A DNA stretch of 64,000 nucleotides from Channallabes apus (lineage: Eukaryota; Chordata; Actinopteri; Siluriformes; Clariidae), in the NCBI GenBank assembly GCA_030522415.1, contig JAMASW010000059.1, positions 1-64,000 of the forward strand, read 5' to 3'. The notes under the pieces are model-generated. The model was not told where the DNA came from. It worked only from the letters and a program-made list of their open reading frames with translations, and ran no database searches. The position numbers and the translations under genes were made by a program. Shown one piece after another: positions 10,627-64,000 of the stretch. Within the stretch, counting starts at the first letter, position 1. The number at the start of each line of letters is the position of its first letter.

Positions 10627-10648
10627 GGGTTAGGGTTAGGGTTAGGTT
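10627..10648 (+). repeat. Interstitial TTAGGG tract
   Basis: About three TTAGGG units follow copy A2. Confidence 0.85.
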
Positions 10649-17455: not shown

Positions 17456-17493
17456 GCAGCGAAACTGTTGTCCCCAGCTAATAGGGTGTCTAG

Positions 17494-17575
17494 GTGAGTA
17501 TCTATATTAAAATGATATTACCTTCTATATAGTGAGGTTAACAATTAAGATAATGTTTTAACCTCTACTCACCAG
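17494..17575 (+). other. Possible intron before the element right end
   Basis: TCTAG-GTGAGTATC resembles a splice donor and TACTCACCAG-GACATGG an acceptor about 80 bp later. The acceptor is followed by about 47 bp ending in GGCACTGGCT at the TTAGGG junction. The 876-bp unit has the same order: splice-like sites, then about 55 bp, then GGCACTGGCT. The sites are short motifs and unproven. Confidence 0.3.
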
Positions 17576-17621
17576 GACATGGAGTTGGCTTCCAACAAGG
17601 TGACCGAGGGCGGCACTGGCT

Positions 17622-19180: not shown

Positions 19181-19210
19181 TAGGGTTAGGGTTAGGGTTA
19201 GGGTTAGGTT
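19180..19210 (+). repeat. TTAGGG tract between truncated copy gamma and the 876-bp array
   Basis: About four TTAGGG units follow the GTGTG end of copy gamma and grade into GGGTTAGGTTTGGG, the head of array unit 1. Confidence 0.92.
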
Positions 19211-19510
19211 TGGGAAAATGACCGTGGTTCCATTACCCCGCAAAGAACCCAAGTGGGGTTAGGTTTAGGGAAAAAGGGGGGGTAGAGGTTAAGACAATTA
19301 GGGAAACGGTCCGGGGGCAGGGTCCAAGGCAAGGGAACTTTGGGGATAGGGTGGGATGGGGGATAGGGTAGGGAAACTCGGGTCCCTGCAGGACTAGAAC
19401 CAACGTTATGCACGGGCCTACCACGACTTTATCAGTCCCAGACCCCTCAAAACCTCCCCTGTAGCTCTGAAAAACATCCCTCCCCTTGGTTAACACTTTG
19501 AGCTCTTTGT

Positions 19511-19571
19511 TGCAAGTCTATTTGGCGCTACGTTTCGGTTTATCTTAACCTTCATCAGGCTTAGACTTGCA
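19511..19571 (-). ncRNA. Hammerhead-ribozyme-like fold, repeated in every array unit
   Basis: On the minus strand a perfect 10-bp outer stem I pairs TGCAAGTCTA with TAGACTTGCA. Inside are an inner GC/GC two-pair helix with an asymmetric internal loop, the core CUGAUGA, a 4-bp stem II GGTT/AACC with loop AAGATA, then GAAAC followed at once by GUA. The predicted cleavage is after GUA, between 19529 and 19528. The open helix is I (type I), as in Penelope-like elements and animal retrozymes. Two departures from the textbook form exist: an unpaired A between CUGAUGA and stem II, and a loopless two-pair helix III whose ACGU palindrome could pair between two copies. It recurs once per unit through the array, about 51 times. 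Transcripts of the minus strand would carry tandem cleavage sites. Confidence 0.6.
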
Positions 19572-19797
19572 TTTTGATGTTCCTCCTGGCTGCTTCGATG
19601 CTAGAGTGATGAAAACTCTGGTAAACTGACCTTTTAAACACATGGGATACACCCCCTTGTTGAAAAAATTGCTCCTTAAATAACAGCCAAGGAAAAATAA
19701 TTTGCTTTACAATTTTTCTGAAAGTTATTTTCTTCTTTAAATTATTTAACTTCAGAAAATAAGTGCACCAGGTAATTATTAAACTTTTTCCAAGTTT

Positions 19798-19969
19798 CCA
19801 AAAATTGTCCCATGATTTTTTTCATGTATTTATGGTTCTTTTTTCCTTTTTTCAGGATTTTTGACCATCAGGACAGAGTTTTTTACTTCATTTCAACTTA
19901 CCAAAAATTGTCCCATAATTTTTATGGTTCTTTTTTACCTTGTTTCAGGATTTTTGACCATCAGGACAG
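19798..19969 (+). repeat. Internal direct duplication within each 876-bp unit
   Basis: CCAAAAATTGTCCCATRATT starts both copies (19798 and 19901). Each then has TTATGGTTCTTTTTT, a pyrimidine run and CAGGATTTTTGACCATCAGG plus ACAG. The two halves are about 103 and 69 bp and differ by small indels. Present in F1 and all array units, so it predates the amplification. Confidence 0.85.
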
Positions 19970-20021
19970 GTAAGCGCAGCAGGTAAGTATTTTTCTTTGA
20001 CTTAATTTTGTTGTTTTTCAG
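19970..20021 (+). other. Splice-site-like motifs near the unit right end
   Basis: Two donor-like sites (ACAG-GTAAGC at 19970 and GCAG-GTAAGT at 19983) are followed by a pyrimidine-rich stretch and an acceptor-like TTTTTCAG ending at 20021. The 39-bp interval from the second donor is too short for normal vertebrate splicing, so any real intron would need a different donor or acceptor. A longer pair is GTAATT at 19772 to TTTTTTCAG at 19855 (84 bp). Shared by all units. Confidence 0.3.
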
Positions 20022-23000
20022 GCTGGTGGAAGACAAAGAGAAGATCCGAGTCCAACTCCATCGGGTGGCACTGGCTGGGTTAGGTTTGGGAAAATGACCG
20101 TGGTTCCATTACCCCGCAAAGAACCCAAGTGGGGTTAGGTTTAGGGAAAAAGGGGGGGTAGAGGTTAAGACAATTAGGGAAACGGTCCGGGGGCAGGGTC
20201 CAAGGCAAGGGAACTTTGGGGATAGGGTGGGATGGGGGATAGGGTAGGGAAACTCGGGTCCCTGCAGGACTAGAACCAACGTTATGCACGGGCCTACCAC
20301 GACTTTATCAGTCCCAGACCCCTCAAAACCTCCCCTGTAGCTCTGAAAAACATCCCTCCCCTTGGTTAACACTTTGAGCTCTTTGTTGCAAGTCTATTTG
20401 GCGCTACGTTTCGGTTTATCTTAACCTTCATCAGGCTTAGACTTGCATTTTGATGTTCCTCCTGGCTGCTTCGATGCTAGAGTGATGAAAACTCTGGTAA
20501 ACTGACCTTTTAAACACATGGGATACACCCCCTTGTTGAAAAAATTGCTCCTTAAATAACAGCCAAGGAAAAATAATTTGCTTTACAATTTTTCTGAAAG
20601 TTATTTTCTTCTTTAAATTATTTAACTTCAGAAAATAAGTGCACCAGGTAATTATTAAACTTTTTCCAAGTTTCCAAAAATTGTCCCATGATTTTTTTCA
20701 TGTATTTATGGTTCTTTTTTCCTTTTTTCAGGATTTTTGACCATCAGGACAGAGTTTTTTACTTCATTTCAACTTACCAAAAATTGTCCCATAATTTTTA
20801 TGGTTCTTTTTTACCTTGTTTCAGGATTTTTGACCATCAGGACAGGTAAGCGCAGCAGGTAAGTATTTTTCTTTGACTTAATTTTGTTGTTTTTCAGGCT
20901 GGTGGAAGACAAAGAGAAGATCCGAGTCCAACTCCATCGGGTGGCACTGGCTGGGTTAGGTTTGGGAAAATGACCGTGGTTCCATTACCCCGCAAAGAAC
21001 CCAAGTGGGGTTAGGTTTAGGGAAAAAGGGGGGGTAGAGGTTAAGACAATTAGGGAAACGGTCCGGGGGCAGGGTCCAAGGCAAGGGAACTTTGGGGATA
21101 GGGTGGGATGGGGGATAGGGTAGGGAAACTCGGGTCCCTGCAGGACTAGAACCAACGTTATGCACGGGCCTACCACGACTTTATCAGTCCCAGACCCCTC
21201 AAAACCTCCCCTGTAGCTCTGAAAAACATCCCTCCCCTTGGTTAACACTTTGAGCTCTTTGTTGCAAGTCTATTTGGCGCTACGTTTCGGTTTATCTTAA
21301 CCTTCATCAGGCTTAGACTTGCATTTTGATGTTCCTCCTGGCTGCTTCGATGCTAGAGTGATGAAAACTCTGGTAAACTGACCTTTTAAACACATGGGAT
21401 ACACCCCCTTGTTGAAAAAATTGCTCCTTAAATAACAGCCAAGGAAAAATAATTTGCTTTACAATTTTTCTGAAAGTTATTTTCTTCTTTAAATTATTTA
21501 ACTTCAGAAAATAAGTGCACCAGGTAATTATTAAACTTTTTCCAAGTTTCCAAAAATTGTCCCATGATTTTTTTCATGTATTTATGGTTCTTTTTTCCTT
21601 TTTTCAGGATTTTTGACCATCAGGACAGAGTTTTTTACTTCATTTCAACTTACCAAAAATTGTCCCATAATTTTTATGGTTCTTTTTTACCTTGTTTCAG
21701 GATTTTTGACCATCAGGACAGGTAAGCGCAGCAGGTAAGTATTTTTCTTTGACTTAATTTTGTTGTTTTTCAGGCTGGTGGAAGACAAAGAGAAGATCCG
21801 AGTCCAACTCCATCGGGTGGCACTGGCTGGGTTAGGTTTGGGAAAATGACCGTGGTTCCATTACCCCGCAAAGAACCCAAGTGGGGTTAGGTTTAGGGAA
21901 AAAGGGGGGGTAGAGGTTAAGACAATTAGGGAAACGGTCCGGGGGCAGGGTCCAAGGCAAGGGAACTTTGGGGATAGGGTGGGATGGGGGATAGGGTAGG
22001 GAAACTCGGGTCCCTGCAGGACTAGAACCAACGTTATGCACGGGCCTACCACGACTTTATCAGTCCCAGACCCCTCAAAACCTCCCCTGTAGCTCTGAAA
22101 AACATCCCTCCCCTTGGTTAACACTTTGAGCTCTTTGTTGCAAGTCTATTTGGCGCTACGTTTCGGTTTATCTTAACCTTCATCAGGCTTAGACTTGCAT
22201 TTTGATGTTCCTCCTGGCTGCTTCGATGCTAGAGTGATGAAAACTCTGGTAAACTGACCTTTTAAACACATGGGATACACCCCCTTGTTGAAAAAATTGC
22301 TCCTTAAATAACAGCCAAGGAAAAATAATTTGCTTTACAATTTTTCTGAAAGTTATTTTCTTCTTTAAATTATTTAACTTCAGAAAATAAGTGCACCAGG
22401 TAATTATTAAACTTTTTCCAAGTTTCCAAAAATTGTCCCATGATTTTTTTCATGTATTTATGGTTCTTTTTTCCTTTTTTCAGGATTTTTGACCATCAGG
22501 ACAGAGTTTTTTACTTCATTTCAACTTACCAAAAATTGTCCCATAATTTTTATGGTTCTTTTTTACCTTGTTTCAGGATTTTTGACCATCAGGACAGGTA
22601 AGCGCAGCAGGTAAGTATTTTTCTTTGACTTAATTTTGTTGTTTTTCAGGCTGGTGGAAGACAAAGAGAAGATCCGAGTCCAACTCCATCGGGTGGCACT
22701 GGCTGGGTTAGGTTTGGGAAAATGACCGTGGTTCCATTACCCCGCAAAGAACCCAAGTGGGGTTAGGTTTAGGGAAAAAGGGGGGGTAGAGGTTAAGACA
22801 ATTAGGGAAACGGTCCGGGGGCAGGGTCCAAGGCAAGGGAACTTTGGGGATAGGGTGGGATGGGGGATAGGGTAGGGAAACTCGGGTCCCTGCAGGACTA
22901 GAACCAACGTTATGCACGGGCCTACCACGACTTTATCAGTCCCAGACCCCTCAAAACCTCCCCTGTAGCTCTGAAAAACATCCCTCCCCTTGGTTAACAC

Positions 23001-24456
23001 TTTGAGCTCTTTGTTGCAAGTCTATTTGGCGCTACGTTTCGGTTTATCTTAACCTTCATCAGGCTTAGACTTGCATTTTGATGTTCCTCCTGGCTGCTTC
23101 GATGCTAGAGTGATGAAAACTCTGGTAAACTGACCTTTTAAACACATGGGATACACCCCCTTGTTGAAAAAATTGCTCCTTAAATAACAGCCAAGGAAAA
23201 ATAATTTGCTTTACAATTTTTCTGAAAGTTATTTTCTTCTTTAAATTATTTAACTTCAGAAAATAAGTGCACCAGGTAATTATTAAACTTTTTCCAAGTT
23301 TCCAAAAATTGTCCCATGATTTTTTTCATGTATTTATGGTTCTTTTTTCCTTTTTTCAGGATTTTTGACCATCAGGACAGAGTTTTTTACTTCATTTCAA
23401 CTTACCAAAAATTGTCCCATAATTTTTATGGTTCTTTTTTACCTTGTTTCAGGATTTTTGACCATCAGGACAGGTAAGCGCAGCAGGTAAGTATTTTTCT
23501 TTGACTTAATTTTGTTGTTTTTCAGGCTGGTGGAAGACAAAGAGAAGATCCGAGTCCAACTCCATCGGGTGGCACTGGCTGGGTTAGGTTTGGGAAAATG
23601 ACCGTGGTTCCATTACCCCGCAAAGAACCCAAGTGGGGTTAGGTTTAGGGAAAAAGGGGGGGTAGAGGTTAAGACAATTAGGGAAACGGTCCGGGGGCAG
23701 GGTCCAAGGCAAGGGAACTTTGGGGATAGGGTGGGATGGGGGATAGGGTAGGGAAACTCGGGTCCCTGCAGGACTAGAACCAACGTTATGCACGGGCCTA
23801 CCACGACTTTATCAGTCCCAGACCCCTCAAAACCTCCCCTGTAGCTCTGAAAAACATCCCTCCCCTTGGTTAACACTTTGAGCTCTTTGTTGCAAGTCTA
23901 TTTGGCGCTACGTTTCGGTTTATCTTAACCTTCATCAGGCTTAGACTTGCATTTTGATGTTCCTCCTGGCTGCTTCGATGCTAGAGTGATGAAAACTCTG
24001 GTAAACTGACCTTTTAAACACATGGGATACACCCCCTTGTTGAAAAAATTGCTCCTTAAATAACAGCCAAGGAAAAATAATTTGCTTTACAATTTTTCTG
24101 AAAGTTATTTTCTTCTTTAAATTATTTAACTTCAGAAAATAAGTGCACCAGGTAATTATTAAACTTTTTCCAAGTTTCCAAAAATTGTCCCATGATTTTT
24201 TTCATGTATTTATGGTTCTTTTTTCCTTTTTTCAGGATTTTTGACCATCAGGACAGAGTTTTTTACTTCATTTCAACTTACCAAAAATTGTCCCATAATT
24301 TTTATGGTTCTTTTTTACCTTGTTTCAGGATTTTTGACCATCAGGACAGGTAAGCGCAGCAGGTAAGTATTTTTCTTTGACTTAATTTTGTTGTTTTTCA
24401 GGCTGGTGGAAGACAAAGAGAAGATCCGAGTCCAACTCCATCGGGTGGCACTGGCT

Positions 24457-25331
24457 GGGTTAGGTTTGGGAAAATGACCGTGGTTCCATTACCCCGCAAA
24501 GAACCCAAGTGGGGTTAGGTTTAGGGAAAAAGGGGGGTAGAGGTTAAGACAATTAGGGAAACGGTCCGGGGGCAGGGTCCAAGGCAAGGGAACTTTGGGG
24601 ATAGGGTGGGATGGGGGATAGGGTAGGGAAACTCGGGTCCCTGCAGGACTAGAACCAACGTTATGCACGGGCCTACCACGACTTTATCAGTCCCAGACCC
24701 CTCAAAACCTCCCCTGTAGCTCTGAAAAACATCCCTCCCCTTGGTTAACACTTTGAGCTCTTTGTTGCAAGTCTATTTGGCGCTACGTTTCGGTTTATCT
24801 TAACCTTCATCAGGCTTAGACTTGCATTTTGATGTTCCTCCTGGCTGCTTCGATGCTAGAGTGATGAAAACTCTGGTAAACTGACCTTTTAAACACATGG
24901 GATACACCCCCTTGTTGAAAAAATTGCTCCTTAAATAACAGCCAAGGAAAAATAATTTGCTTTACAATTTTTCTGAAAGTTATTTTCTTCTTTAAATTAT
25001 TTAACTTCAGAAAATAAGTGCACCAGGTAATTATTAAACTTTTTCCAAGTTTCCAAAAATTGTCCCATGATTTTTTTCATGTATTTATGGTTCTTTTTTC
25101 CTTTTTTCAGGATTTTTGACCATCAGGACAGAGTTTTTTACTTCATTTCAACTTACCAAAAATTGTCCCATAATTTTTATGGTTCTTTTTTACCTTGTTT
25201 CAGGATTTTTGACCATCAGGACAGGTAAGCGCAGCAGGTAAGTATTTTTCTTTGACTTAATTTTGTTGTTTTTCAGGCTGGTGGAAGACAAAGAGAAGAT
25301 CCGAGTCCAACTCCATCGGGTGGCACTGGCT
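24457..25331 (+). repeat. Array unit 7, 875-bp length variant
   Basis: It has six G instead of seven in the G run but keeps the TAGAGG state of ordinary units. It is therefore independent of the units 13-17 variant. Confidence 0.9.
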
Positions 25332-28300
25332 GGGTTAGGTTTGGGAAAATGACCGTGGTTCCATTACCCCGCAAAGAACCCAAGTGGGGTTAGGTTTAGG
25401 GAAAAAGGGGGGGTAGAGGTTAAGACAATTAGGGAAACGGTCCGGGGGCAGGGTCCAAGGCAAGGGAACTTTGGGGATAGGGTGGGATGGGGGATAGGGT
25501 AGGGAAACTCGGGTCCCTGCAGGACTAGAACCAACGTTATGCACGGGCCTACCACGACTTTATCAGTCCCAGACCCCTCAAAACCTCCCCTGTAGCTCTG
25601 AAAAACATCCCTCCCCTTGGTTAACACTTTGAGCTCTTTGTTGCAAGTCTATTTGGCGCTACGTTTCGGTTTATCTTAACCTTCATCAGGCTTAGACTTG
25701 CATTTTGATGTTCCTCCTGGCTGCTTCGATGCTAGAGTGATGAAAACTCTGGTAAACTGACCTTTTAAACACATGGGATACACCCCCTTGTTGAAAAAAT
25801 TGCTCCTTAAATAACAGCCAAGGAAAAATAATTTGCTTTACAATTTTTCTGAAAGTTATTTTCTTCTTTAAATTATTTAACTTCAGAAAATAAGTGCACC
25901 AGGTAATTATTAAACTTTTTCCAAGTTTCCAAAAATTGTCCCATGATTTTTTTCATGTATTTATGGTTCTTTTTTCCTTTTTTCAGGATTTTTGACCATC
26001 AGGACAGAGTTTTTTACTTCATTTCAACTTACCAAAAATTGTCCCATAATTTTTATGGTTCTTTTTTACCTTGTTTCAGGATTTTTGACCATCAGGACAG
26101 GTAAGCGCAGCAGGTAAGTATTTTTCTTTGACTTAATTTTGTTGTTTTTCAGGCTGGTGGAAGACAAAGAGAAGATCCGAGTCCAACTCCATCGGGTGGC
26201 ACTGGCTGGGTTAGGTTTGGGAAAATGACCGTGGTTCCATTACCCCGCAAAGAACCCAAGTGGGGTTAGGTTTAGGGAAAAAGGGGGGGTAGAGGTTAAG
26301 ACAATTAGGGAAACGGTCCGGGGGCAGGGTCCAAGGCAAGGGAACTTTGGGGATAGGGTGGGATGGGGGATAGGGTAGGGAAACTCGGGTCCCTGCAGGA
26401 CTAGAACCAACGTTATGCACGGGCCTACCACGACTTTATCAGTCCCAGACCCCTCAAAACCTCCCCTGTAGCTCTGAAAAACATCCCTCCCCTTGGTTAA
26501 CACTTTGAGCTCTTTGTTGCAAGTCTATTTGGCGCTACGTTTCGGTTTATCTTAACCTTCATCAGGCTTAGACTTGCATTTTGATGTTCCTCCTGGCTGC
26601 TTCGATGCTAGAGTGATGAAAACTCTGGTAAACTGACCTTTTAAACACATGGGATACACCCCCTTGTTGAAAAAATTGCTCCTTAAATAACAGCCAAGGA
26701 AAAATAATTTGCTTTACAATTTTTCTGAAAGTTATTTTCTTCTTTAAATTATTTAACTTCAGAAAATAAGTGCACCAGGTAATTATTAAACTTTTTCCAA
26801 GTTTCCAAAAATTGTCCCATGATTTTTTTCATGTATTTATGGTTCTTTTTTCCTTTTTTCAGGATTTTTGACCATCAGGACAGAGTTTTTTACTTCATTT
26901 CAACTTACCAAAAATTGTCCCATAATTTTTATGGTTCTTTTTTACCTTGTTTCAGGATTTTTGACCATCAGGACAGGTAAGCGCAGCAGGTAAGTATTTT
27001 TCTTTGACTTAATTTTGTTGTTTTTCAGGCTGGTGGAAGACAAAGAGAAGATCCGAGTCCAACTCCATCGGGTGGCACTGGCTGGGTTAGGTTTGGGAAA
27101 ATGACCGTGGTTCCATTACCCCGCAAAGAACCCAAGTGGGGTTAGGTTTAGGGAAAAAGGGGGGGTAGAGGTTAAGACAATTAGGGAAACGGTCCGGGGG
27201 CAGGGTCCAAGGCAAGGGAACTTTGGGGATAGGGTGGGATGGGGGATAGGGTAGGGAAACTCGGGTCCCTGCAGGACTAGAACCAACGTTATGCACGGGC
27301 CTACCACGACTTTATCAGTCCCAGACCCCTCAAAACCTCCCCTGTAGCTCTGAAAAACATCCCTCCCCTTGGTTAACACTTTGAGCTCTTTGTTGCAAGT
27401 CTATTTGGCGCTACGTTTCGGTTTATCTTAACCTTCATCAGGCTTAGACTTGCATTTTGATGTTCCTCCTGGCTGCTTCGATGCTAGAGTGATGAAAACT
27501 CTGGTAAACTGACCTTTTAAACACATGGGATACACCCCCTTGTTGAAAAAATTGCTCCTTAAATAACAGCCAAGGAAAAATAATTTGCTTTACAATTTTT
27601 CTGAAAGTTATTTTCTTCTTTAAATTATTTAACTTCAGAAAATAAGTGCACCAGGTAATTATTAAACTTTTTCCAAGTTTCCAAAAATTGTCCCATGATT
27701 TTTTTCATGTATTTATGGTTCTTTTTTCCTTTTTTCAGGATTTTTGACCATCAGGACAGAGTTTTTTACTTCATTTCAACTTACCAAAAATTGTCCCATA
27801 ATTTTTATGGTTCTTTTTTACCTTGTTTCAGGATTTTTGACCATCAGGACAGGTAAGCGCAGCAGGTAAGTATTTTTCTTTGACTTAATTTTGTTGTTTT
27901 TCAGGCTGGTGGAAGACAAAGAGAAGATCCGAGTCCAACTCCATCGGGTGGCACTGGCTGGGTTAGGTTTGGGAAAATGACCGTGGTTCCATTACCCCGC
28001 AAAGAACCCAAGTGGGGTTAGGTTTAGGGAAAAAGGGGGGGTAGAGGTTAAGACAATTAGGGAAACGGTCCGGGGGCAGGGTCCAAGGCAAGGGAACTTT
28101 GGGGATAGGGTGGGATGGGGGATAGGGTAGGGAAACTCGGGTCCCTGCAGGACTAGAACCAACGTTATGCACGGGCCTACCACGACTTTATCAGTCCCAG
28201 ACCCCTCAAAACCTCCCCTGTAGCTCTGAAAAACATCCCTCCCCTTGGTTAACACTTTGAGCTCTTTGTTGCAAGTCTATTTGGCGCTACGTTTCGGTTT

Positions 28301-35700: not shown

Positions 35701-35838
35701 CTTGTTTCAGGATTTTTGACCATCAGGACAGGTAAGTGCAGCAGGTAAGTATTTTTCTTTGACTTAATTTTGTTGTTTTTCAGGCTGGTGGAAGACAAAG
35801 AGAAGATCCGAGTCCAACTCCATCGGGTGGCACTGGCT
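29712..35838 (+). repeat. Variant block of units 13-19
   Basis: All seven units carry TAGGGG (others TAGAGG) and GTAAGTGC (others GTAAGCGC). Units 13-17 also have six G, while 18 and 19 have seven. Unit 12 already has GTAAGTGC at its right end (29610) but TAGAGG at its head. That places the left edge of the block inside unit 12. Both states match founder copy F1. Confidence 0.93.
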
Positions 35839-44800: not shown

Positions 44801-44910
44801 ACGTTATGCACGGGCCTACCACGACTTTATCAGTCCCAGACCCCTCAAAACCTCCCCTGTAGCTCTGAAAAACATCCCTCCCCTTGGTTAACACTTTGAG
44901 CTCTTTGTTG

Positions 44911-44971
44911 CAAGTCTATTTGGCGCTACGTTTCGCTTTATCTTAACCTTCATCAGGCTTAGACTTGCATT
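44911..44971 (-). ncRNA. Unit 30 hammerhead-like fold with a stem II mutation
   Basis: A single change (G to C at 44936 on +) turns the stem II strand AACC into AAGC, replacing one of four stem II pairs by G-G. It is the only change I noticed in the ribozyme-like segment across the array, though I did not align every copy exhaustively. Confidence 0.6.
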
Positions 44972-47900
44972 TTGATGTTCCTCCTGGCTGCTTCGATGCT
45001 AGAGTGATGAAAACTCTGGTAAACTGACCTTTTAAACACATGGGATACACCCCCTTGTTGAAAAAATTGCTCCTTAAATAACAGCCAAGGAAAAATAATT
45101 TGCTTTACAATTTTTCTGAAAGTTATTTTCTTCTTTAAATTATTTAACTTCAGAAAATAAGTGCACCAGGTAATTATTAAACTTTTTCCAAGTTTCCAAA
45201 AATTGTCCCATGATTTTTTTCATGTATTTATGGTTCTTTTTTCCTTTTTTCAGGATTTTTGACCATCAGGACAGAGTTTTTTACTTCATTTCAACTTACC
45301 AAAAATTGTCCCATAATTTTTATGGTTCTTTTTTACCTTGTTTCAGGATTTTTGACCATCAGGACAGGTAAGCGCAGCAGGTAAGTATTTTTCTTTGACT
45401 TAATTTTGTTGTTTTTCAGGCTGGTGGAAGACAAAGAGAAGATCCGAGTCCAACTCCATCGGGTGGCACTGGCTGGGTTAGGTTTGGGAAAATGACCGTG
45501 GTTCCATTACCCCGCAAAGAACCCAAGTGGGGTTAGGTTTAGGGAAAAAGGGGGGGTAGAGGTTAAGACAATTAGGGAAACGGTCCGGGGGCAGGGTCCA
45601 AGGCAAGGGAACTTTGGGGATAGGGTGGGATGGGGGATAGGGTAGGGAAACTCGGGTCCCTGCAGGACTAGAACCAACGTTATGCACGGGCCTACCACGA
45701 CTTTATCAGTCCCAGACCCCTCAAAACCTCCCCTGTAGCTCTGAAAAACATCCCTCCCCTTGGTTAACACTTTGAGCTCTTTGTTGCAAGTCTATTTGGC
45801 GCTACGTTTCGGTTTATCTTAACCTTCATCAGGCTTAGACTTGCATTTTGATGTTCCTCCTGGCTGCTTCGATGCTAGAGTGATGAAAACTCTGGTAAAC
45901 TGACCTTTTAAACACATGGGATACACCCCCTTGTTGAAAAAATTGCTCCTTAAATAACAGCCAAGGAAAAATAATTTGCTTTACAATTTTTCTGAAAGTT
46001 ATTTTCTTCTTTAAATTATTTAACTTCAGAAAATAAGTGCACCAGGTAATTATTAAACTTTTTCCAAGTTTCCAAAAATTGTCCCATGATTTTTTTCATG
46101 TATTTATGGTTCTTTTTTCCTTTTTTCAGGATTTTTGACCATCAGGACAGAGTTTTTTACTTCATTTCAACTTACCAAAAATTGTCCCATAATTTTTATG
46201 GTTCTTTTTTACCTTGTTTCAGGATTTTTGACCATCAGGACAGGTAAGCGCAGCAGGTAAGTATTTTTCTTTGACTTAATTTTGTTGTTTTTCAGGCTGG
46301 TGGAAGACAAAGAGAAGATCCGAGTCCAACTCCATCGGGTGGCACTGGCTGGGTTAGGTTTGGGAAAATGACCGTGGTTCCATTACCCCGCAAAGAACCC
46401 AAGTGGGGTTAGGTTTAGGGAAAAAGGGGGGGTAGAGGTTAAGACAATTAGGGAAACGGTCCGGGGGCAGGGTCCAAGGCAAGGGAACTTTGGGGATAGG
46501 GTGGGATGGGGGATAGGGTAGGGAAACTCGGGTCCCTGCAGGACTAGAACCAACGTTATGCACGGGCCTACCACGACTTTATCAGTCCCAGACCCCTCAA
46601 AACCTCCCCTGTAGCTCTGAAAAACATCCCTCCCCTTGGTTAACACTTTGAGCTCTTTGTTGCAAGTCTATTTGGCGCTACGTTTCGGTTTATCTTAACC
46701 TTCATCAGGCTTAGACTTGCATTTTGATGTTCCTCCTGGCTGCTTCGATGCTAGAGTGATGAAAACTCTGGTAAACTGACCTTTTAAACACATGGGATAC
46801 ACCCCCTTGTTGAAAAAATTGCTCCTTAAATAACAGCCAAGGAAAAATAATTTGCTTTACAATTTTTCTGAAAGTTATTTTCTTCTTTAAATTATTTAAC
46901 TTCAGAAAATAAGTGCACCAGGTAATTATTAAACTTTTTCCAAGTTTCCAAAAATTGTCCCATGATTTTTTTCATGTATTTATGGTTCTTTTTTCCTTTT
47001 TTCAGGATTTTTGACCATCAGGACAGAGTTTTTTACTTCATTTCAACTTACCAAAAATTGTCCCATAATTTTTATGGTTCTTTTTTACCTTGTTTCAGGA
47101 TTTTTGACCATCAGGACAGGTAAGCGCAGCAGGTAAGTATTTTTCTTTGACTTAATTTTGTTGTTTTTCAGGCTGGTGGAAGACAAAGAGAAGATCCGAG
47201 TCCAACTCCATCGGGTGGCACTGGCTGGGTTAGGTTTGGGAAAATGACCGTGGTTCCATTACCCCGCAAAGAACCCAAGTGGGGTTAGGTTTAGGGAAAA
47301 AGGGGGGGTAGAGGTTAAGACAATTAGGGAAACGGTCCGGGGGCAGGGTCCAAGGCAAGGGAACTTTGGGGATAGGGTGGGATGGGGGATAGGGTAGGGA
47401 AACTCGGGTCCCTGCAGGACTAGAACCAACGTTATGCACGGGCCTACCACGACTTTATCAGTCCCAGACCCCTCAAAACCTCCCCTGTAGCTCTGAAAAA
47501 CATCCCTCCCCTTGGTTAACACTTTGAGCTCTTTGTTGCAAGTCTATTTGGCGCTACGTTTCGGTTTATCTTAACCTTCATCAGGCTTAGACTTGCATTT
47601 TGATGTTCCTCCTGGCTGCTTCGATGCTAGAGTGATGAAAACTCTGGTAAACTGACCTTTTAAACACATGGGATACACCCCCTTGTTGAAAAAATTGCTC
47701 CTTAAATAACAGCCAAGGAAAAATAATTTGCTTTACAATTTTTCTGAAAGTTATTTTCTTCTTTAAATTATTTAACTTCAGAAAATAAGTGCACCAGGTA
47801 ATTATTAAACTTTTTCCAAGTTTCCAAAAATTGTCCCATGATTTTTTTCATGTATTTATGGTTCTTTTTTCCTTTTTTCAGGATTTTTGACCATCAGGAC

Positions 47901-53376: not shown

Positions 53377-56300
53377 GGGTTAGGTTTGGGAAAATGACCG
53401 TGGTTCCATTACCCCGCAAAGAACCCAAGTGGGGTTAGGTTTAGGGAAAAAGGGGGGGTAGAGGTTAAGACAATTAGGGAAACGGTCCGGGGGCAGGGTC
53501 CAAGGCAAGGGAACTTTGGGGATAGGGTGGGATGGGGGATAGGGTAGGGAAACTCGGGTCCCTGCAGGACTAGAACCAACGTTATGCACGGGCCTACCAC
53601 GACTTTATCAGTCCCAGACCCCTCAAAACCTCCCCTGTAGCTCTGAAAAACATCCCTCCCCTTGGTTAACACTTTGAGCTCTTTGTTGCAAGTCTATTTG
53701 GCGCTACGTTTCGGTTTATCTTAACCTTCATCAGGCTTAGACTTGCATTTTGATGTTCCTCCTGGCTGCTTCGATGCTAGAGTGATGAAAACTCTGGTAA
53801 ACTGACCTTTTAAACACATGGGATACACCCCCTTGTTGAAAAAATTGCTCCTTAAATAACAGCCAAGGAAAAATAATTTGCTTTACAATTTTTCTGAAAG
53901 TTATTTTCTTCTTTAAATTATTTAACTTCAGAAAATAAGTGCACCAGGTAATTATTAAACTTTTTCCAAGTTTCCAAAAATTGTCCCATGATTTTTTTCA
54001 TGTATTTATGGTTCTTTTTTCCTTTTTTCAGGATTTTTGACCATCAGGACAGAGTTTTTTACTTCATTTCAACTTACCAAAAATTGTCCCATAATTTTTA
54101 TGGTTCTTTTTTACCTTGTTTCAGGATTTTTGACCATCAGGACAGGTAAGCGCAGCAGGTAAGTATTTTTCTTTGACTTAATTTTGTTGTTTTTCAGGCT
54201 GGTGGAAGACAAAGAGAAGATCCGAGTCCAACTCCATCGGGTGGCACTGGCTGGGTTAGGTTTGGGAAAATGACCGTGGTTCCATTACCCCGCAAAGAAC
54301 CCAAGTGGGGTTAGGTTTAGGGAAAAAGGGGGGGTAGAGGTTAAGACAATTAGGGAAACGGTCCGGGGGCAGGGTCCAAGGCAAGGGAACTTTGGGGATA
54401 GGGTGGGATGGGGGATAGGGTAGGGAAACTCGGGTCCCTGCAGGACTAGAACCAACGTTATGCACGGGCCTACCACGACTTTATCAGTCCCAGACCCCTC
54501 AAAACCTCCCCTGTAGCTCTGAAAAACATCCCTCCCCTTGGTTAACACTTTGAGCTCTTTGTTGCAAGTCTATTTGGCGCTACGTTTCGGTTTATCTTAA
54601 CCTTCATCAGGCTTAGACTTGCATTTTGATGTTCCTCCTGGCTGCTTCGATGCTAGAGTGATGAAAACTCTGGTAAACTGACCTTTTAAACACATGGGAT
54701 ACACCCCCTTGTTGAAAAAATTGCTCCTTAAATAACAGCCAAGGAAAAATAATTTGCTTTACAATTTTTCTGAAAGTTATTTTCTTCTTTAAATTATTTA
54801 ACTTCAGAAAATAAGTGCACCAGGTAATTATTAAACTTTTTCCAAGTTTCCAAAAATTGTCCCATGATTTTTTTCATGTATTTATGGTTCTTTTTTCCTT
54901 TTTTCAGGATTTTTGACCATCAGGACAGAGTTTTTTACTTCATTTCAACTTACCAAAAATTGTCCCATAATTTTTATGGTTCTTTTTTACCTTGTTTCAG
55001 GATTTTTGACCATCAGGACAGGTAAGCGCAGCAGGTAAGTATTTTTCTTTGACTTAATTTTGTTGTTTTTCAGGCTGGTGGAAGACAAAGAGAAGATCCG
55101 AGTCCAACTCCATCGGGTGGCACTGGCTGGGTTAGGTTTGGGAAAATGACCGTGGTTCCATTACCCCGCAAAGAACCCAAGTGGGGTTAGGTTTAGGGAA
55201 AAAGGGGGGGTAGAGGTTAAGACAATTAGGGAAACGGTCCGGGGGCAGGGTCCAAGGCAAGGGAACTTTGGGGATAGGGTGGGATGGGGGATAGGGTAGG
55301 GAAACTCGGGTCCCTGCAGGACTAGAACCAACGTTATGCACGGGCCTACCACGACTTTATCAGTCCCAGACCCCTCAAAACCTCCCCTGTAGCTCTGAAA
55401 AACATCCCTCCCCTTGGTTAACACTTTGAGCTCTTTGTTGCAAGTCTATTTGGCGCTACGTTTCGGTTTATCTTAACCTTCATCAGGCTTAGACTTGCAT
55501 TTTGATGTTCCTCCTGGCTGCTTCGATGCTAGAGTGATGAAAACTCTGGTAAACTGACCTTTTAAACACATGGGATACACCCCCTTGTTGAAAAAATTGC
55601 TCCTTAAATAACAGCCAAGGAAAAATAATTTGCTTTACAATTTTTCTGAAAGTTATTTTCTTCTTTAAATTATTTAACTTCAGAAAATAAGTGCACCAGG
55701 TAATTATTAAACTTTTTCCAAGTTTCCAAAAATTGTCCCATGATTTTTTTCATGTATTTATGGTTCTTTTTTCCTTTTTTCAGGATTTTTGACCATCAGG
55801 ACAGAGTTTTTTACTTCATTTCAACTTACCAAAAATTGTCCCATAATTTTTATGGTTCTTTTTTACCTTGTTTCAGGATTTTTGACCATCAGGACAGGTA
55901 AGCGCAGCAGGTAAGTATTTTTCTTTGACTTAATTTTGTTGTTTTTCAGGCTGGTGGAAGACAAAGAGAAGATCCGAGTCCAACTCCATCGGGTGGCACT
56001 GGCTGGGTTAGGTTTGGGAAAATGACCGTGGTTCCATTACCCCGCAAAGAACCCAAGTGGGGTTAGGTTTAGGGAAAAAGGGGGGGTAGAGGTTAAGACA
56101 ATTAGGGAAACGGTCCGGGGGCAGGGTCCAAGGCAAGGGAACTTTGGGGATAGGGTGGGATGGGGGATAGGGTAGGGAAACTCGGGTCCCTGCAGGACTA
56201 GAACCAACGTTATGCACGGGCCTACCACGACTTTATCAGTCCCAGACCCCTCAAAACCTCCCCTGTAGCTCTGAAAAACATCCCTCCCCTTGGTTAACAC

Positions 56301-59300
56301 TTTGAGCTCTTTGTTGCAAGTCTATTTGGCGCTACGTTTCGGTTTATCTTAACCTTCATCAGGCTTAGACTTGCATTTTGATGTTCCTCCTGGCTGCTTC
56401 GATGCTAGAGTGATGAAAACTCTGGTAAACTGACCTTTTAAACACATGGGATACACCCCCTTGTTGAAAAAATTGCTCCTTAAATAACAGCCAAGGAAAA
56501 ATAATTTGCTTTACAATTTTTCTGAAAGTTATTTTCTTCTTTAAATTATTTAACTTCAGAAAATAAGTGCACCAGGTAATTATTAAACTTTTTCCAAGTT
56601 TCCAAAAATTGTCCCATGATTTTTTTCATGTATTTATGGTTCTTTTTTCCTTTTTTCAGGATTTTTGACCATCAGGACAGAGTTTTTTACTTCATTTCAA
56701 CTTACCAAAAATTGTCCCATAATTTTTATGGTTCTTTTTTACCTTGTTTCAGGATTTTTGACCATCAGGACAGGTAAGCGCAGCAGGTAAGTATTTTTCT
56801 TTGACTTAATTTTGTTGTTTTTCAGGCTGGTGGAAGACAAAGAGAAGATCCGAGTCCAACTCCATCGGGTGGCACTGGCTGGGTTAGGTTTGGGAAAATG
56901 ACCGTGGTTCCATTACCCCGCAAAGAACCCAAGTGGGGTTAGGTTTAGGGAAAAAGGGGGGGTAGAGGTTAAGACAATTAGGGAAACGGTCCGGGGGCAG
57001 GGTCCAAGGCAAGGGAACTTTGGGGATAGGGTGGGATGGGGGATAGGGTAGGGAAACTCGGGTCCCTGCAGGACTAGAACCAACGTTATGCACGGGCCTA
57101 CCACGACTTTATCAGTCCCAGACCCCTCAAAACCTCCCCTGTAGCTCTGAAAAACATCCCTCCCCTTGGTTAACACTTTGAGCTCTTTGTTGCAAGTCTA
57201 TTTGGCGCTACGTTTCGGTTTATCTTAACCTTCATCAGGCTTAGACTTGCATTTTGATGTTCCTCCTGGCTGCTTCGATGCTAGAGTGATGAAAACTCTG
57301 GTAAACTGACCTTTTAAACACATGGGATACACCCCCTTGTTGAAAAAATTGCTCCTTAAATAACAGCCAAGGAAAAATAATTTGCTTTACAATTTTTCTG
57401 AAAGTTATTTTCTTCTTTAAATTATTTAACTTCAGAAAATAAGTGCACCAGGTAATTATTAAACTTTTTCCAAGTTTCCAAAAATTGTCCCATGATTTTT
57501 TTCATGTATTTATGGTTCTTTTTTCCTTTTTTCAGGATTTTTGACCATCAGGACAGAGTTTTTTACTTCATTTCAACTTACCAAAAATTGTCCCATAATT
57601 TTTATGGTTCTTTTTTACCTTGTTTCAGGATTTTTGACCATCAGGACAGGTAAGCGCAGCAGGTAAGTATTTTTCTTTGACTTAATTTTGTTGTTTTTCA
57701 GGCTGGTGGAAGACAAAGAGAAGATCCGAGTCCAACTCCATCGGGTGGCACTGGCTGGGTTAGGTTTGGGAAAATGACCGTGGTTCCATTACCCCGCAAA
57801 GAACCCAAGTGGGGTTAGGTTTAGGGAAAAAGGGGGGGTAGAGGTTAAGACAATTAGGGAAACGGTCCGGGGGCAGGGTCCAAGGCAAGGGAACTTTGGG
57901 GATAGGGTGGGATGGGGGATAGGGTAGGGAAACTCGGGTCCCTGCAGGACTAGAACCAACGTTATGCACGGGCCTACCACGACTTTATCAGTCCCAGACC
58001 CCTCAAAACCTCCCCTGTAGCTCTGAAAAACATCCCTCCCCTTGGTTAACACTTTGAGCTCTTTGTTGCAAGTCTATTTGGCGCTACGTTTCGGTTTATC
58101 TTAACCTTCATCAGGCTTAGACTTGCATTTTGATGTTCCTCCTGGCTGCTTCGATGCTAGAGTGATGAAAACTCTGGTAAACTGACCTTTTAAACACATG
58201 GGATACACCCCCTTGTTGAAAAAATTGCTCCTTAAATAACAGCCAAGGAAAAATAATTTGCTTTACAATTTTTCTGAAAGTTATTTTCTTCTTTAAATTA
58301 TTTAACTTCAGAAAATAAGTGCACCAGGTAATTATTAAACTTTTTCCAAGTTTCCAAAAATTGTCCCATGATTTTTTTCATGTATTTATGGTTCTTTTTT
58401 CCTTTTTTCAGGATTTTTGACCATCAGGACAGAGTTTTTTACTTCATTTCAACTTACCAAAAATTGTCCCATAATTTTTATGGTTCTTTTTTACCTTGTT
58501 TCAGGATTTTTGACCATCAGGACAGGTAAGCGCAGCAGGTAAGTATTTTTCTTTGACTTAATTTTGTTGTTTTTCAGGCTGGTGGAAGACAAAGAGAAGA
58601 TCCGAGTCCAACTCCATCGGGTGGCACTGGCTGGGTTAGGTTTGGGAAAATGACCGTGGTTCCATTACCCCGCAAAGAACCCAAGTGGGGTTAGGTTTAG
58701 GGAAAAAGGGGGGGTAGAGGTTAAGACAATTAGGGAAACGGTCCGGGGGCAGGGTCCAAGGCAAGGGAACTTTGGGGATAGGGTGGGATGGGGGATAGGG
58801 TAGGGAAACTCGGGTCCCTGCAGGACTAGAACCAACGTTATGCACGGGCCTACCACGACTTTATCAGTCCCAGACCCCTCAAAACCTCCCCTGTAGCTCT
58901 GAAAAACATCCCTCCCCTTGGTTAACACTTTGAGCTCTTTGTTGCAAGTCTATTTGGCGCTACGTTTCGGTTTATCTTAACCTTCATCAGGCTTAGACTT
59001 GCATTTTGATGTTCCTCCTGGCTGCTTCGATGCTAGAGTGATGAAAACTCTGGTAAACTGACCTTTTAAACACATGGGATACACCCCCTTGTTGAAAAAA
59101 TTGCTCCTTAAATAACAGCCAAGGAAAAATTATTTGCTTTACAATTTTTCTGAAAGTTATTTTCTTCTTTAAATTATTTAACTTCAGAAAATAAGTGCAC
59201 CAGGTAATTATTAAACTTTTTCCAAGTTTCCAAAAATTGTCCCATGATTTTTTTCATGTATTTATGGTTCTTTTTTCCTTTTTTCAGGATTTTTGACCAT

Positions 59301-62300
59301 CAGGACAGAGTTTTTTACTTCATTTCAACTTACCAAAAATTGTCCCATAATTTTTATGGTTCTTTTTTACCTTGTTTCAGGATTTTTGACCATCAGGACA
59401 GGTAAGCGCAGCAGGTAAGTATTTTTCTTTGACTTAATTTTGTTGTTTTTCAGGCTGGTGGAAGACAAAGAGAAGATCCGAGTCCAACTCCATCGGGTGG
59501 CACTGGCTGGGTTAGGTTTGGGAAAATGACCGTGGTTCCATTACCCCGCAAAGAACCCAAGTGGGGTTAGGTTTAGGGAAAAAGGGGGGGTAGAGGTTAA
59601 GACAATTAGGGAAACGGTCCGGGGGCAGGGTCCAAGGCAAGGGAACTTTGGGGATAGGGTGGGATGGGGGATAGGGTAGGGAAACTCGGGTCCCTGCAGG
59701 ACTAGAACCAACGTTATGCACGGGCCTACCACGACTTTATCAGTCCCAGACCCCTCAAAACCTCCCCTGTAGCTCTGAAAAACATCCCTCCCCTTGGTTA
59801 ACACTTTGAGCTCTTTGTTGCAAGTCTATTTGGCGCTACGTTTCGGTTTATCTTAACCTTCATCAGGCTTAGACTTGCATTTTGATGTTCCTCCTGGCTG
59901 CTTCGATGCTAGAGTGATGAAAACTCTGGTAAACTGACCTTTTAAACACATGGGATACACCCCCTTGTTGAAAAAATTGCTCCTTAAATAACAGCCAAGG
60001 AAAAATAATTTGCTTTACAATTTTTCTGAAAGTTATTTTCTTCTTTAAATTATTTAACTTCAGAAAATAAGTGCACCAGGTAATTATTAAACTTTTTCCA
60101 AGTTTCCAAAAATTGTCCCATGATTTTTTTCATGTATTTATGGTTCTTTTTTCCTTTTTTCAGGATTTTTGACCATCAGGACAGAGTTTTTTACTTCATT
60201 TCAACTTACCAAAAATTGTCCCATAATTTTTATGGTTCTTTTTTACCTTGTTTCAGGATTTTTGACCATCAGGACAGGTAAGCGCAGCAGGTAAGTATTT
60301 TTCTTTGACTTAATTTTGTTGTTTTTCAGGCTGGTGGAAGACAAAGAGAAGATCCGAGTCCAACTCCATCGGGTGGCACTGGCTGGGTTAGGTTTGGGAA
60401 AATGACCGTGGTTCCATTACCCCGCAAAGAACCCAAGTGGGGTTAGGTTTAGGGAAAAAGGGGGGGTAGAGGTTAAGACAATTAGGGAAACGGTCCGGGG
60501 GCAGGGTCCAAGGCAAGGGAACTTTGGGGATAGGGTGGGATGGGGGATAGGGTAGGGAAACTCGGGTCCCTGCAGGACTAGAACCAACGTTATGCACGGG
60601 CCTACCACGACTTTATCAGTCCCAGACCCCTCAAAACCTCCCCTGTAGCTCTGAAAAACATCCCTCCCCTTGGTTAACACTTTGAGCTCTTTGTTGCAAG
60701 TCTATTTGGCGCTACGTTTCGGTTTATCTTAACCTTCATCAGGCTTAGACTTGCATTTTGATGTTCCTCCTGGCTGCTTCGATGCTAGAGTGATGAAAAC
60801 TCTGGTAAACTGACCTTTTAAACACATGGGATACACCCCCTTGTTGAAAAAATTGCTCCTTAAATAACAGCCAAGGAAAAATAATTTGCTTTACAATTTT
60901 TCTGAAAGTTATTTTCTTCTTTAAATTATTTAACTTCAGAAAATAAGTGCACCAGGTAATTATTAAACTTTTTCCAAGTTTCCAAAAATTGTCCCATGAT
61001 TTTTTTCATGTATTTATGGTTCTTTTTTCCTTTTTTCAGGATTTTTGACCATCAGGACAGAGTTTTTTACTTCATTTCAACTTACCAAAAATTGTCCCAT
61101 AATTTTTATGGTTCTTTTTTACCTTGTTTCAGGATTTTTGACCATCAGGACAGGTAAGCGCAGCAGGTAAGTATTTTTCTTTGACTTAATTTTGTTGTTT
61201 TTCAGGCTGGTGGAAGACAAAGAGAAGATCCGAGTCCAACTCCATCGGGTGGCACTGGCTGGGTTAGGTTTGGGAAAATGACCGTGGTTCCATTACCCCG
61301 CAAAGAACCCAAGTGGGGTTAGGTTTAGGGAAAAAGGGGGGGTAGAGGTTAAGACAATTAGGGAAACGGTCCGGGGGCAGGGTCCAAGGCAAGGGAACTT
61401 TGGGGATAGGGTGGGATGGGGGATAGGGTAGGGAAACTCGGGTCCCTGCAGGACTAGAACCAACGTTATGCACGGGCCTACCACGACTTTATCAGTCCCA
61501 GACCCCTCAAAACCTCCCCTGTAGCTCTGAAAAACATCCCTCCCCTTGGTTAACACTTTGAGCTCTTTGTTGCAAGTCTATTTGGCGCTACGTTTCGGTT
61601 TATCTTAACCTTCATCAGGCTTAGACTTGCATTTTGATGTTCCTCCTGGCTGCTTCGATGCTAGAGTGATGAAAACTCTGGTAAACTGACCTTTTAAACA
61701 CATGGGATACACCCCCTTGTTGAAAAAATTGCTCCTTAAATAACAGCCAAGGAAAAATAATTTGCTTTACAATTTTTCTGAAAGTTATTTTCTTCTTTAA
61801 ATTATTTAACTTCAGAAAATAAGTGCACCATGTAATTATTAAACTTTTTCCAAGTTTCCAAAAATTGTCCCATGATTTTTTTCATGTATTTATGGTTCTT
61901 TTTTCCTTTTTTCAGGATTTTTGACCATCAGGACAGAGTTTTTTACTTCATTTCAACTTACCAAAAATTGTCCCATAATTTTTATGGTTCTTTTTTACCT
62001 TGTTTCAGGATTTTTGACCATCAGGACAGGTAAGCGCAGCAGGTAAGTATTTTTCTTTGACTTAATTTTGTTGTTTTTCAGGCTGGTGGAAGACAAAGAG
62101 AAGATCCGAGTCCAACTCCATCGGGTGGCACTGGCTGGGTTAGGTTTGGGAAAATGACCGTGGTTCCATTACCCCGCAAAGAACCCAAGTGGGGTTAGGT
62201 TTAGGGAAAAAGGGGGGGTAGAGGTTAAGACAATTAGGGAAACGGTCCGGGGGCAGGGTCCAAGGCAAGGGAACTTTGGGGATAGGGTGGGATGGGGGAT

Positions 62301-64000
62301 AGGGTAGGGAAACTCGGGTCCCTGCAGGACTAGAACCAACGTTATGCACGGGCCTACCACGACTTTATCAGTCCCAGACCCCTCAAAACCTCCCCTGTAG
62401 CTCTGAAAAACATCCCTCCCCTTGGTTAACACTTTGAGCTCTTTGTTGCAAGTCTATTTGGCGCTACGTTTCGGTTTATCTTAACCTTCATCAGGCTTAG
62501 ACTTGCATTTTGATGTTCCTCCTGGCTGCTTCGATGCTAGAGTGATGAAAACTCTGGTAAACTGACCTTTTAAACACATGGGATACACCCCCTTGTTGAA
62601 AAAATTGCTCCTTAAATAACAGCCAAGGAAAAATAATTTGCTTTACAATTTTTCTGAAAGTTATTTTCTTCTTTAAATTATTTAACTTCAGAAAATAAGT
62701 GCACCAGGTAATTATTAAACTTTTTCCAAGTTTCCAAAAATTGTCCCATGATTTTTTTCATGTATTTATGGTTCTTTTTTCCTTTTTTCAGGATTTTTGA
62801 CCATCAGGACAGAGTTTTTTACTTCATTTCAACTTACCAAAAATTGTCCCATAATTTTTATGGTTCTTTTTTACCTTGTTTCAGGATTTTTGACCATCAG
62901 GACAGGTAAGCGCAGCAGGTAAGTATTTTTCTTTGACTTAATTTTGTTGTTTTTCAGGCTGGTGGAAGACAAAGAGAAGATCCGAGTCCAACTCCATCGG
63001 GTGGCACTGGCTGGGTTAGGTTTGGGAAAATGACCGTGGTTCCATTACCCCGCAAAGAACCCAAGTGGGGTTAGGTTTAGGGAAAAAGGGGGGGTAGAGG
63101 TTAAGACAATTAGGGAAACGGTCCGGGGGCAGGGTCCAAGGCAAGGGAACTTTGGGGATAGGGTGGGATGGGGGATAGGGTAGGGAAACTCGGGTCCCTG
63201 CAGGACTAGAACCAACGTTATGCACGGGCCTACCACGACTTTATCAGTCCCAGACCCCTCAAAACCTCCCCTGTAGCTCTGAAAAACATCCCTCCCCTTG
63301 GTTAACACTTTGAGCTCTTTGTTGCAAGTCTATTTGGCGCTACGTTTCGGTTTATCTTAACCTTCATCAGGCTTAGACTTGCATTTTGATGTTCCTCCTG
63401 GCTGCTTCGATGCTAGAGTGATGAAAACTCTGGTAAACTGACCTTTTAAACACATGGGATACACCCCCTTGTTGAAAAAATTGCTCCTTAAATAACAGCC
63501 AAGGAAAAATAATTTGCTTTACAATTTTTCTGAAAGTTATTTTCTTCTTTAAATTATTTAACTTCAGAAAATAAGTGCACCAGGTAATTATTAAACTTTT
63601 TCCAAGTTTCCAAAAATTGTCCCATGATTTTTTTCATGTATTTATGGTTCTTTTTTCCTTTTTTCAGGATTTTTGACCATCAGGACAGAGTTTTTTACTT
63701 CATTTCAACTTACCAAAAATTGTCCCATAATTTTTATGGTTCTTTTTTACCTTGTTTCAGGATTTTTGACCATCAGGACAGGTAAGCGCAGCAGGTAAGT
63801 ATTTTTCTTTGACTTAATTTTGTTGTTTTTCAGGCTGGTGGAAGACAAAGAGAAGATCCGAGTCCAACTCCATCGGGTGGCACTGGCTGGGTTAGGTTTG
63901 GGAAAATGACCGTGGTTCCATTACCCCGCAAAGAACCCAAGTGGGGTTAGGTTTAGGGAAAAAGGGGGGGTAGAGGTTAAGACAATTAGGGAAACGGTCC

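Follow-up and report, generated by a model that had tools for sequence, protein, structure and literature searches.

Satellite array and unit structure

We analysed a 64,000-nucleotide stretch of DNA from the fish Channallabes apus (assembly GCA_030522415.1, contig JAMASW010000059.1, positions 1 to 64,000 of the forward strand), hereafter the window. A satellite array with a unit of about 876 bp extends from position 19209 to 64000 and has not ended where the window stops. The 51 anchors in the array bound 50 complete units with lengths of 876, 875 and, in one case, 894 bp, and 36 of these units are identical. An earlier note on this DNA had described a tandem array of this unit size on a chromosome end, with a hammerhead-like fold on the minus strand of every unit, and both descriptions hold: 51 such blocks recur in the array at a period of about 876 bp, the first at 19512-19570 and one, at 44905-44972, with a point change in stem II. 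The block is a real hammerhead-type fold, and the autonomous relatives of the satellite are Penelope-like elements (PLEs), in which the block lies upstream of open reading frames (ORFs) with reverse transcriptase (RT) and GIY-YIG domains.

The minus strand is the sense (ribozyme) strand, on which the unit begins with the 5' end GCCAGTGCC, followed by a promoter-like stretch, the ribozyme block and a PLE-like 3' region, with the 3' end in CCCTAACC-like sequence. The sense 3' end of the array sits on a telomeric TTAGGG run of the plus strand (19179-19208), and the end itself, CCACGGTCATTTTCCCAAA beside CCCTAA (19209-19227, minus strand), is a recurrent one. The first head-to-tail junction, CCTAACCCA joined to GCCAGTGCCACCC (20063-20084, minus strand), has the same form in PLE1, one of the PLEs described below, and in other families. 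A possible PLE-type promoter, recognised by eye only, is located at 19605-19639 (minus strand) and consists of a TTTAAAA box with TCACT about 22 nt further. Statements about published systems refer here and below to excerpts of the cited papers; TATA and TCACT motifs are described there for the pseudo-long terminal repeat (pLTR) of a rotifer PLE (PMC3846280). The two short frames of the satellite unit (19233-19517 and 19561-19821) matched 0 Pfam families, and because no PLE ORF was found in the unit, the satellite is at most a non-autonomous PLE relative. Splice-like signals (CAGGTAAG and TTTTTCAGG) were noted at 19960-20030 on the plus strand, opposite to the ribozyme strand, in the units that were read.

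Satellite units of 718/719, 803/804, 872-876 and 1384 bp form arrays on C14, C11, C5, C8 and C10. The 719/718-bp unit (C11 and C14; loci L043 and L056) corresponds to the 876-bp unit minus positions 417-572 and is about 99% identical to it over the remainder. An older and diverged partial-tandem copy of slightly more than one unit is situated at 11560-12600 in the window (minus strand), with telomeric repeats on both sides and a ribozyme block at 11873-11931; its one diverged unit spans roughly 11560-12440.

Hammerhead-like fold of the satellite block

On the minus strand, the first block reads GCAAGUCUA-A-GC-CUGAUGA-A-GGUU-AAGAUA-AACC-GAAACGUA/GC-GCCAAA-UAGACUUGC, with the predicted cleavage site at the slash. 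Helix II is formed by GGUU and AACC around the loop AAGAUA. The outer stem had been given as 10 bp, which is correct if one flanking pair is counted, whereas the 59-nt block itself contains 9 bp. The block has a minimum free energy of -17.4 as compared to -7.8 +/- 2.5 for dinucleotide shuffles, 1 of 500 of which was as low. In the lowest-energy fold, the outer helix I and helix II are formed, and the 2-bp inner helix I is lost to a competing pairing. The fold compatible with a hammerhead is less stable by 3.8 kcal/mol. Likewise, within a minus-strand stretch of 1000 nt, the outer helix I and helix II have pairing probabilities of 0.87 to 1.0, while those of the two inner helix I pairs are below 0.01 because an alternative pairing is preferred.

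The type I order claimed previously was confirmed in core scans, of which one search pattern demanded much of the core and another less: CUGANGA and GAA, an A-U pair at the base of helix III, an NUH triplet and an open helix I were all found. Helix II does not directly follow A9, as one extra base intervenes, and helix III is not closed, since GAAACGUH provides at most 2 pairs and no loop. As the extra A had been partly built into the more demanding of these patterns and into the CGAAACGTHGC pattern used below for the genome, the window and all loci were scanned again without this demand, which recovered 17 distinct core strings. The extra base is present in 10 of the 10 strings with a helix II of at least 4 pairs; of the other 7 strings, which have no such helix II, 5 are probably chance matches and 2 are satellite-type copies with damage to helix II. 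The extra A, listed as a caveat in the earlier note, is therefore no defect of the satellite. The suggestion that helix III may need dimers fared better: the block contains an ACGU palindrome, which could form helix III between two molecules by ACGU:ACGU pairing. Cervera and de la Pena in 2014 and Lunse in 2017 reportedly described minimal hammerheads that cleave as dimers, with a reduced helix III and in a PLE context.

The Rfam hammerhead families gave no match to the whole window at the gathering threshold, and none at E<=10 to 2.7 kb of the window or to 79 bases around one block. RF00163 yielded 0 matches in the whole genome, where 73 of 136793 first-look candidates were scored, and the Rfam hammerhead models did not match any of the four PLE-type loci that were tried. 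Since even these PLE-type loci are missed, Rfam cannot decide the matter. A literature search on the letters of the extra-A core returned none about ribozymes, judged by title among the matches listed.

Genome-wide occurrence, covariation and conservation

We searched the 1.16 Gb genome for block patterns. The pattern CTGATGAN{4,26}GAAACGTA (CTGATGA..GAAACGTA) was matched 546 + 705 = 1251 times as compared to 11 + 9 = 20 matches for the reversed control, and the pattern CCTGANGAAGN{8,22}CGAAACGTHGC (CCTGANGAAG..CGAAACGTHGC) was matched 582 + 781 = 1363 times, with 0 + 0 matches for its control. The exact core of the 876-, 803- and 719-bp units accounted for 522 + 648 matches. Other copies keep the pairing with different helices, such as GAACAAGCC/GGCTTGTTC, GTGCCC/GGGCAC and AGTCCT/AGGACT. 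That the block is a chance hairpin with hammerhead-like words, to which the lack of an Rfam hammerhead match would correspond, is so improbable in the face of 1363 matches against 0 in the control, of the covariation and of the position before PLE ORFs that we consider it already refuted.

Covariation was analysed in nine non-satellite blocks of the same genome, aligned over the inner 37 columns with 8 distinct rows. The inner 36-37 nt were used for covariation and a hand-made table for helix I because the automatic alignment of full blocks mis-registers the outer helix I. All 56 of the 56 cells pair, and both sides change in 6 of the 7 pairs, a value reached by 2 of 500 shuffles. The covariation score is 0.811, as compared to 0.270 for shuffled alignments (0 of 500 as high) and at most 0.214 for a slid alignment, in counts that related rows can inflate. 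In the hand-typed table, the outer helix I is 100% paired within each of 10 family entries, as compared to 36% when strands are swapped between classes (58 exchanges), and 3 to 5 of the five helix II positions pair, with the lowest value in the single copy on C3.

A covariance model made from the nine non-satellite blocks gave 53 matches in the window and recovered 52 of the 52 satellite copies, 51 of which scored 36.3 bits (E 7e-8) and one, the copy with the stem II change, 28.8 bits (E 9e-6). The 53rd match, at 8975-9010, is itself one of the nine training rows. The covariance-model search that had been suggested as a check failed with the Rfam models and succeeded with a model from the genome's own blocks outside the satellite.

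Conservation was compared between unit types. Between the 876- and 803-bp units, no other window of equal length is as well conserved as the block (1 of 753), which scores 0.983 as compared to 0.820 overall. Windows as conserved as the block numbered 56 of 834 between the 876- and 1384-bp units, 45 of 791 between the 803- and 1384-bp units and 33 of 470 in the comparison with the single copy on C1. The 8 differences from the 1384 block are all at unpaired positions outside the core and the shared pairs (P 2.9e-6), under a mask that counts only pairs common to both blocks and favours the result.

The CUGANGA/GAAACGUH core is kept in all nine blocks, with variation at N and H, while the helices covary, as catalysis would require. 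This speaks against the alternative that PLEs conserve the block as an RNA structure that binds protein or helps to fold the template, and that it no longer acts as a ribozyme in this lineage. We regard that alternative as a lesser possibility, albeit one to be taken seriously: it would accommodate the extra A between A9 and helix II, the loopless helix III and the failure of the Rfam hammerhead models at the four PLE-type loci. Furthermore, the PLE hammerhead of Anolis cut only with protein, and mutations of its catalytic residues did not prevent insertion in vitro (PMC11167929), and natural core insertions range from tolerated to poorly active, with none shown at this place in the excerpts (PMC3088659). 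Catalysis is uncertain given the extra A and the absence of a loop on helix III. Judged from its sequence, the block is a predicted ribozyme, and whether it is catalytic is a close call that we lean slightly against.

Penelope-like elements with the same block

PLE1 (L057, on C8) has the block core at position 364, and about 22 nt separate the end of the block from the first ATG of ORF1, which is 683 codons long and matched 0 Pfam families. The triplet before the predicted cleavage site is GUU in PLE1, in place of the GUA of the satellite. Its ORF2, of 745 codons, contains the Pfam domains RVT_1 (31.6 bits, cut-off 29.6) and GIY-YIG (31.1 bits, cut-off 22.6) and matched 0 solved structures. 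PLE1 thereby has the protein with RT and GIY-YIG domains that is characteristic of PLEs and absent from the satellite, and a hammerhead block in the 5'/pLTR region and tandem copies were likewise found. The kinship to PLEs proposed in the earlier note is thus borne out within one genome. The ORF2 protein matched 4242 of 7988 scored candidates; of the 120 that were listed, the sole named one comes from the fish Coilia grayii. A tblastn search with ORF2, in which 60 of 340 candidates were scored, gave 60 matches; an open frame of 745 amino acids is present in 54 of them, with 93-100% identity. Of the 11 matches on contigs of known length, 10 are less than 50 kb from the end of the contig. In both PLE1 (L057:379-2430) and PLEy (L044:4051-5625), the ORF1 frame ends in a stretch with GDSN that is reminiscent of GDSL esterases; there was no such Pfam match.

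PLE2 (L059) is arranged in tandem with a 5537-bp period, and its block core is located 122 nt before the next ATG. The PLE2 protein has a GIY-YIG domain above the cut-off and an RVT_1 match of 28.8 bits, just under 29.6. PLEy (L044) has the most divergent block, followed by two frames, of which ORF1 gave only a sub-cut-off bacterial match in Pfam, while the second has GIY-YIG above and RVT_1 (19.9 bits) below the cut-off. In PLE3 (L060), the block is situated just before an ATG. A further group of blocks was given the label PLEx in this analysis (L047, L061, L062 and L063).

The window also contains a second ribozyme-type block, of the PLE2 family, at 8964-9017 (minus strand), which has other helix I and II sequences and served as one of the nine training rows. 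It is accompanied by a frame with a 5' piece of a PLE2-type ORF1 (8601-8891, minus strand), which runs through CCTAACCCTAACCC at 8677-8690. Truncated copies similar to this PLE2-type 5' region (8601-9017) were observed at L041:6309-6620 and L053:3772-4070.

The satellite unit as a PLE-like element

We compared the satellite units to PLE1 and to neighbouring subtelomeric repeats. The block matches that of PLE1 over 58-59 nt at 80-83% identity (E 1e-8 to 1e-10, blast against a two-sequence database). Downstream of the block, the 1384-bp unit and the 3' untranslated region (UTR) of PLE1 share GGTAGGCCAGTGCACAACGT, exact over 20 of 20 nt. A permissive search extended this to a 171-nt match with 65% identity (E 2.6e-8) that contains the exact stretch; because this sequence is C-rich and CCCTA-rich, the exact 20-nt stretch is trusted more. 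The strongest blast matches, of ~150-160 nt at 80% identity, are not to the PLE but to a neighbouring subtelomeric repeat on the same locus, family C. The junction is common to the 876-, 803- and 1384-bp units, to two repeat families named B and C, and to PLE1: CCCTAACC-like sequence is followed by GCC[AC]GTGCC[AG]CC. Because of this shared junction form, the unit resembles a PLE-family element from end to end, without its ORFs. The earlier interpretation stands as regards the fold, the type I order and the PLE kinship, and missed that the whole unit is PLE-like and telomere-attached and that the window holds the second block at 8964-9017.

In families B (356-bp period, 9917-10653) and C (14400-18100), the 3' region contains GTGCA, the 3' ends are telomeric and the repeats start with GCCAGTGCC as PLE1 does. 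An unfiltered search for the ribozyme block in the 10.2 kb of the window in which their copies lie gave nothing better than E 0.4, except for the satellite copy at 11887. Repeats that lack the block thus share these ends and join telomeric DNA just the same, and attachment does not require the fold. A SINE-like insert (short interspersed nuclear element; recognised by eye) is present in one family C copy at 14920-15185 and absent from a similar second copy at 18110-18120.

Telomeric junctions

In the window and loci L039-L060, we identified 40 distinct junctions with CCCTAA runs, counting copies with identical flanks once. On the sense-left (3') side there are 23 distinct 10-mers, and six recurrent classes hold 23 of the junctions (CGTCTTTTTA, 6; TTTTCCCAAA, 5; TTTTACTTTA, 4; ACGGTCATTT, 3; TTCACAAAAA, 3; GCGGCTATTT, 2). 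By comparison, the right 10-mers are distinct in 39 of the 40 junctions. Recurrent 3' flanks combined with varied flanks on the other side are the hallmark of elements that attach to telomeric DNA by the 3' end and are truncated to varying extents at the 5' end. At one locus on C14 (L055:5653-5921), telomeric repeats separate four successive segments: an 804 array, a piece resembling the PLE1 3' UTR (compared by eye with L067), a satellite fragment and an 875 array. This arrangement and the junctions match the descriptions of telomere-attaching PLEs (PMC3846280, PMC6431247).

Twelve right flanks were mapped to satellite units, at positions 129, 134, 231, ~287, 388, 423, 434 (twice), 473, 512, 567 and 582. 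Cleavage is predicted after unit position 280, and 0 of the 12 mapped 5' ends are at 281; the nearest is about 7 nt away. This result bears on a retrozyme cycle, in which minus-strand transcripts would self-cleave between GUA and GC into unit-length RNAs that are circularised and copied back. Tandem units with one block each, the type I order and an ACGU palindrome fit for dimers would suit such a cycle, and PLEs of the same genome could supply the RT, as proposed for animal retrozymes (PMC7761336). It is nonetheless unlikely, given the 5' ends, the core with its extra A and no closed helix III, the sister families that attach without a block, and units of 719 to 1384 bp as compared to about 150-400 bp for animal retrozymes. 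Processing to 876-nt monomers and circularisation, which the earlier note had raised as a possibility, is so far not borne out by the 12 junctions or by the sister repeats with the same ends and no fold.

Comparison with known systems and origin of the arrays

The rotifer Athena elements and Terminons resemble the elements described here in that their 3' ends are on reverse-complement telomeric repeats and their 5' ends are truncated by telomeric repeats, and they also have head-to-tail arrays and hammerhead motifs (PMC6431247, PMC3846280). Unlike those systems, the satellite has no PLE ORF that we found, and some 300 nt separate its block from the telomeric 3' end (some 150 nt in the 719-bp unit), whereas the hammerhead of the rotifer PLEs is directly beside that end. 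PLE1 and PLEy, with two ORFs and an endonuclease, differ from either PLE layout in the excerpts of PMC6431247. Poseidon of Anolis shares with PLE1 the RT and GIY-YIG domains, a hammerhead in the region before the ORF and a tandem pLTR organisation, but it prefers AT-rich DNA, and the ribozyme contains the start of its ORF, whereas PLE1 has two ORFs, ends its block about 22 nt before the ORF1 ATG and joins CCCTAA (PMC11167929). Animal non-LTR retrozymes and the satellites of newt and axolotl are likewise tandem repeats, each unit with a single type I hammerhead whose helix III is weak, and dimer activity is described for the amphibian hammerheads. In contrast, the axolotl units are 330-350 bp, with RNAs of ~170-400 nt overall, while the units here are 719-1384 bp and have a loopless helix III, an extra A and telomeric 3' ends (PMC7229834).

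The fold and its covariation, the PLE relatives, the 3' ends that recur on CCCTAA beside 5' truncations that vary, and the one junction form across families are brought together in the reading that we favour: the 876-bp satellite is probably a non-autonomous, telomere-attached PLE relative that carries a minimal type I hammerhead fold in its 5' region. A PLE enzyme would copy minus-strand RNA into DNA, starting from a TTAGGG 3' end paired with the CCUAACC stretch of the RNA, and telomerase would cap the truncated 5' end afterwards. The arrays may arise from tandem RNA or DNA and be reshuffled later by DNA exchange. The fold may also act on tandem RNA and cut it, in which case it would probably do so as a dimer via ACGU:ACGU and perhaps with the assistance of protein.

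Several observations weigh against a telomere-attached PLE relative. The similarity between PLEs and satellites in the 3' region is short and partly of low complexity, and the 876-bp unit itself matches the PLE1 3' region only at E 7e-5. The PLE2 3' UTR was rejected as a source of the satellite, since the regular units matched it no better than E 0.008; lower E-values were obtained solely for a CCCTA-repeat singleton. PLE1 encodes GIY-YIG in its RT protein (ORF2), whereas the telomere-attaching PLEs in the excerpts of PMC3846280 and PMC6431247 are without an endonuclease there. One PLE1 copy is 4.2 Mb from a contig end, and C26 has copies at both 4.2 Mb and 26.8-26.9 Mb, at least one of which must therefore be far inside the contig. 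The PLE copies at C5:53-188 kb have both orientations, and an interstitial 873-bp array is located at C5:2745165-2759164, 2.7 Mb from the contig end. Moreover, the 40 junctions include some that belong to adjacent parts of a single imperfect tract, and recurrent 3' ends with varied partners could alternatively result from recombination within interstitial TTAGGG tracts. Neighbouring array units also share variants, with a run BBBBBCCE and one change common to 8 adjacent units, a pattern as produced by DNA-level exchange.

This clustering of variants, together with the ends and telomeric junctions that families B and C share without a block, would be expected of an ordinary subtelomeric satellite in which an old PLE has left the block as a passive relic, and the arrays and junctions result solely from unequal crossing-over and exchange between telomeric tracts. 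On balance we doubt this explanation: the 40 junctions have recurrent 3' sides and nearly all-different 5' sides, the block is the best-conserved stretch between the 876- and 803-bp units, and the eight differences from the 1384 block all fall at unpaired positions, under the mask of shared pairs that favours this count.

A further variant is that a unit RNA, cut by the ribozyme and circularised, would be copied by the PLE RT, primed by TTAGGG on CCUAACC, which would roll repeatedly round the circle and add a whole homogeneous array at once. Such copying in a single event would explain the precise head-to-tail junction as well as arrays of one unit type with one recurrent 3' end and one variable 5' end on telomeric repeats (the 719-bp array on C11 and the 1384-bp array on C10), and we consider it rather improbable.

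If the satellite is indeed a telomere-attached PLE relative, retroelements that bear a ribozyme and join telomeric DNA would build part of the subtelomeres of a vertebrate. Rotifers have such elements too, but here they would be endonuclease-encoding PLEs with satellite-forming non-autonomous partners. No report of telomere-attaching, ribozyme-bearing retroelements in fish was found among the literature matches listed, in a search without most subscription papers. The role of the PLE hammerhead would be testable in this genome, where sister families occur with the fold (876, 803, 719 and 1384 bp) and without it (B and C).

Other retroelement sequences in the window

Outside the regions described above, a non-LTR retrotransposon frame of 789 amino acids with RVT_1 and Exo_endo_phos domains was identified at 2081-4450 (minus strand; LTR, long terminal repeat), and a second such frame, with no Pfam family, at 1418-2080 (minus strand). 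Weak sub-cut-off matches to integrase zinc-binding and RNase H domains at 231-584 and 4709-4987 (minus strand) are perhaps the remains of an LTR retroelement or retrovirus.

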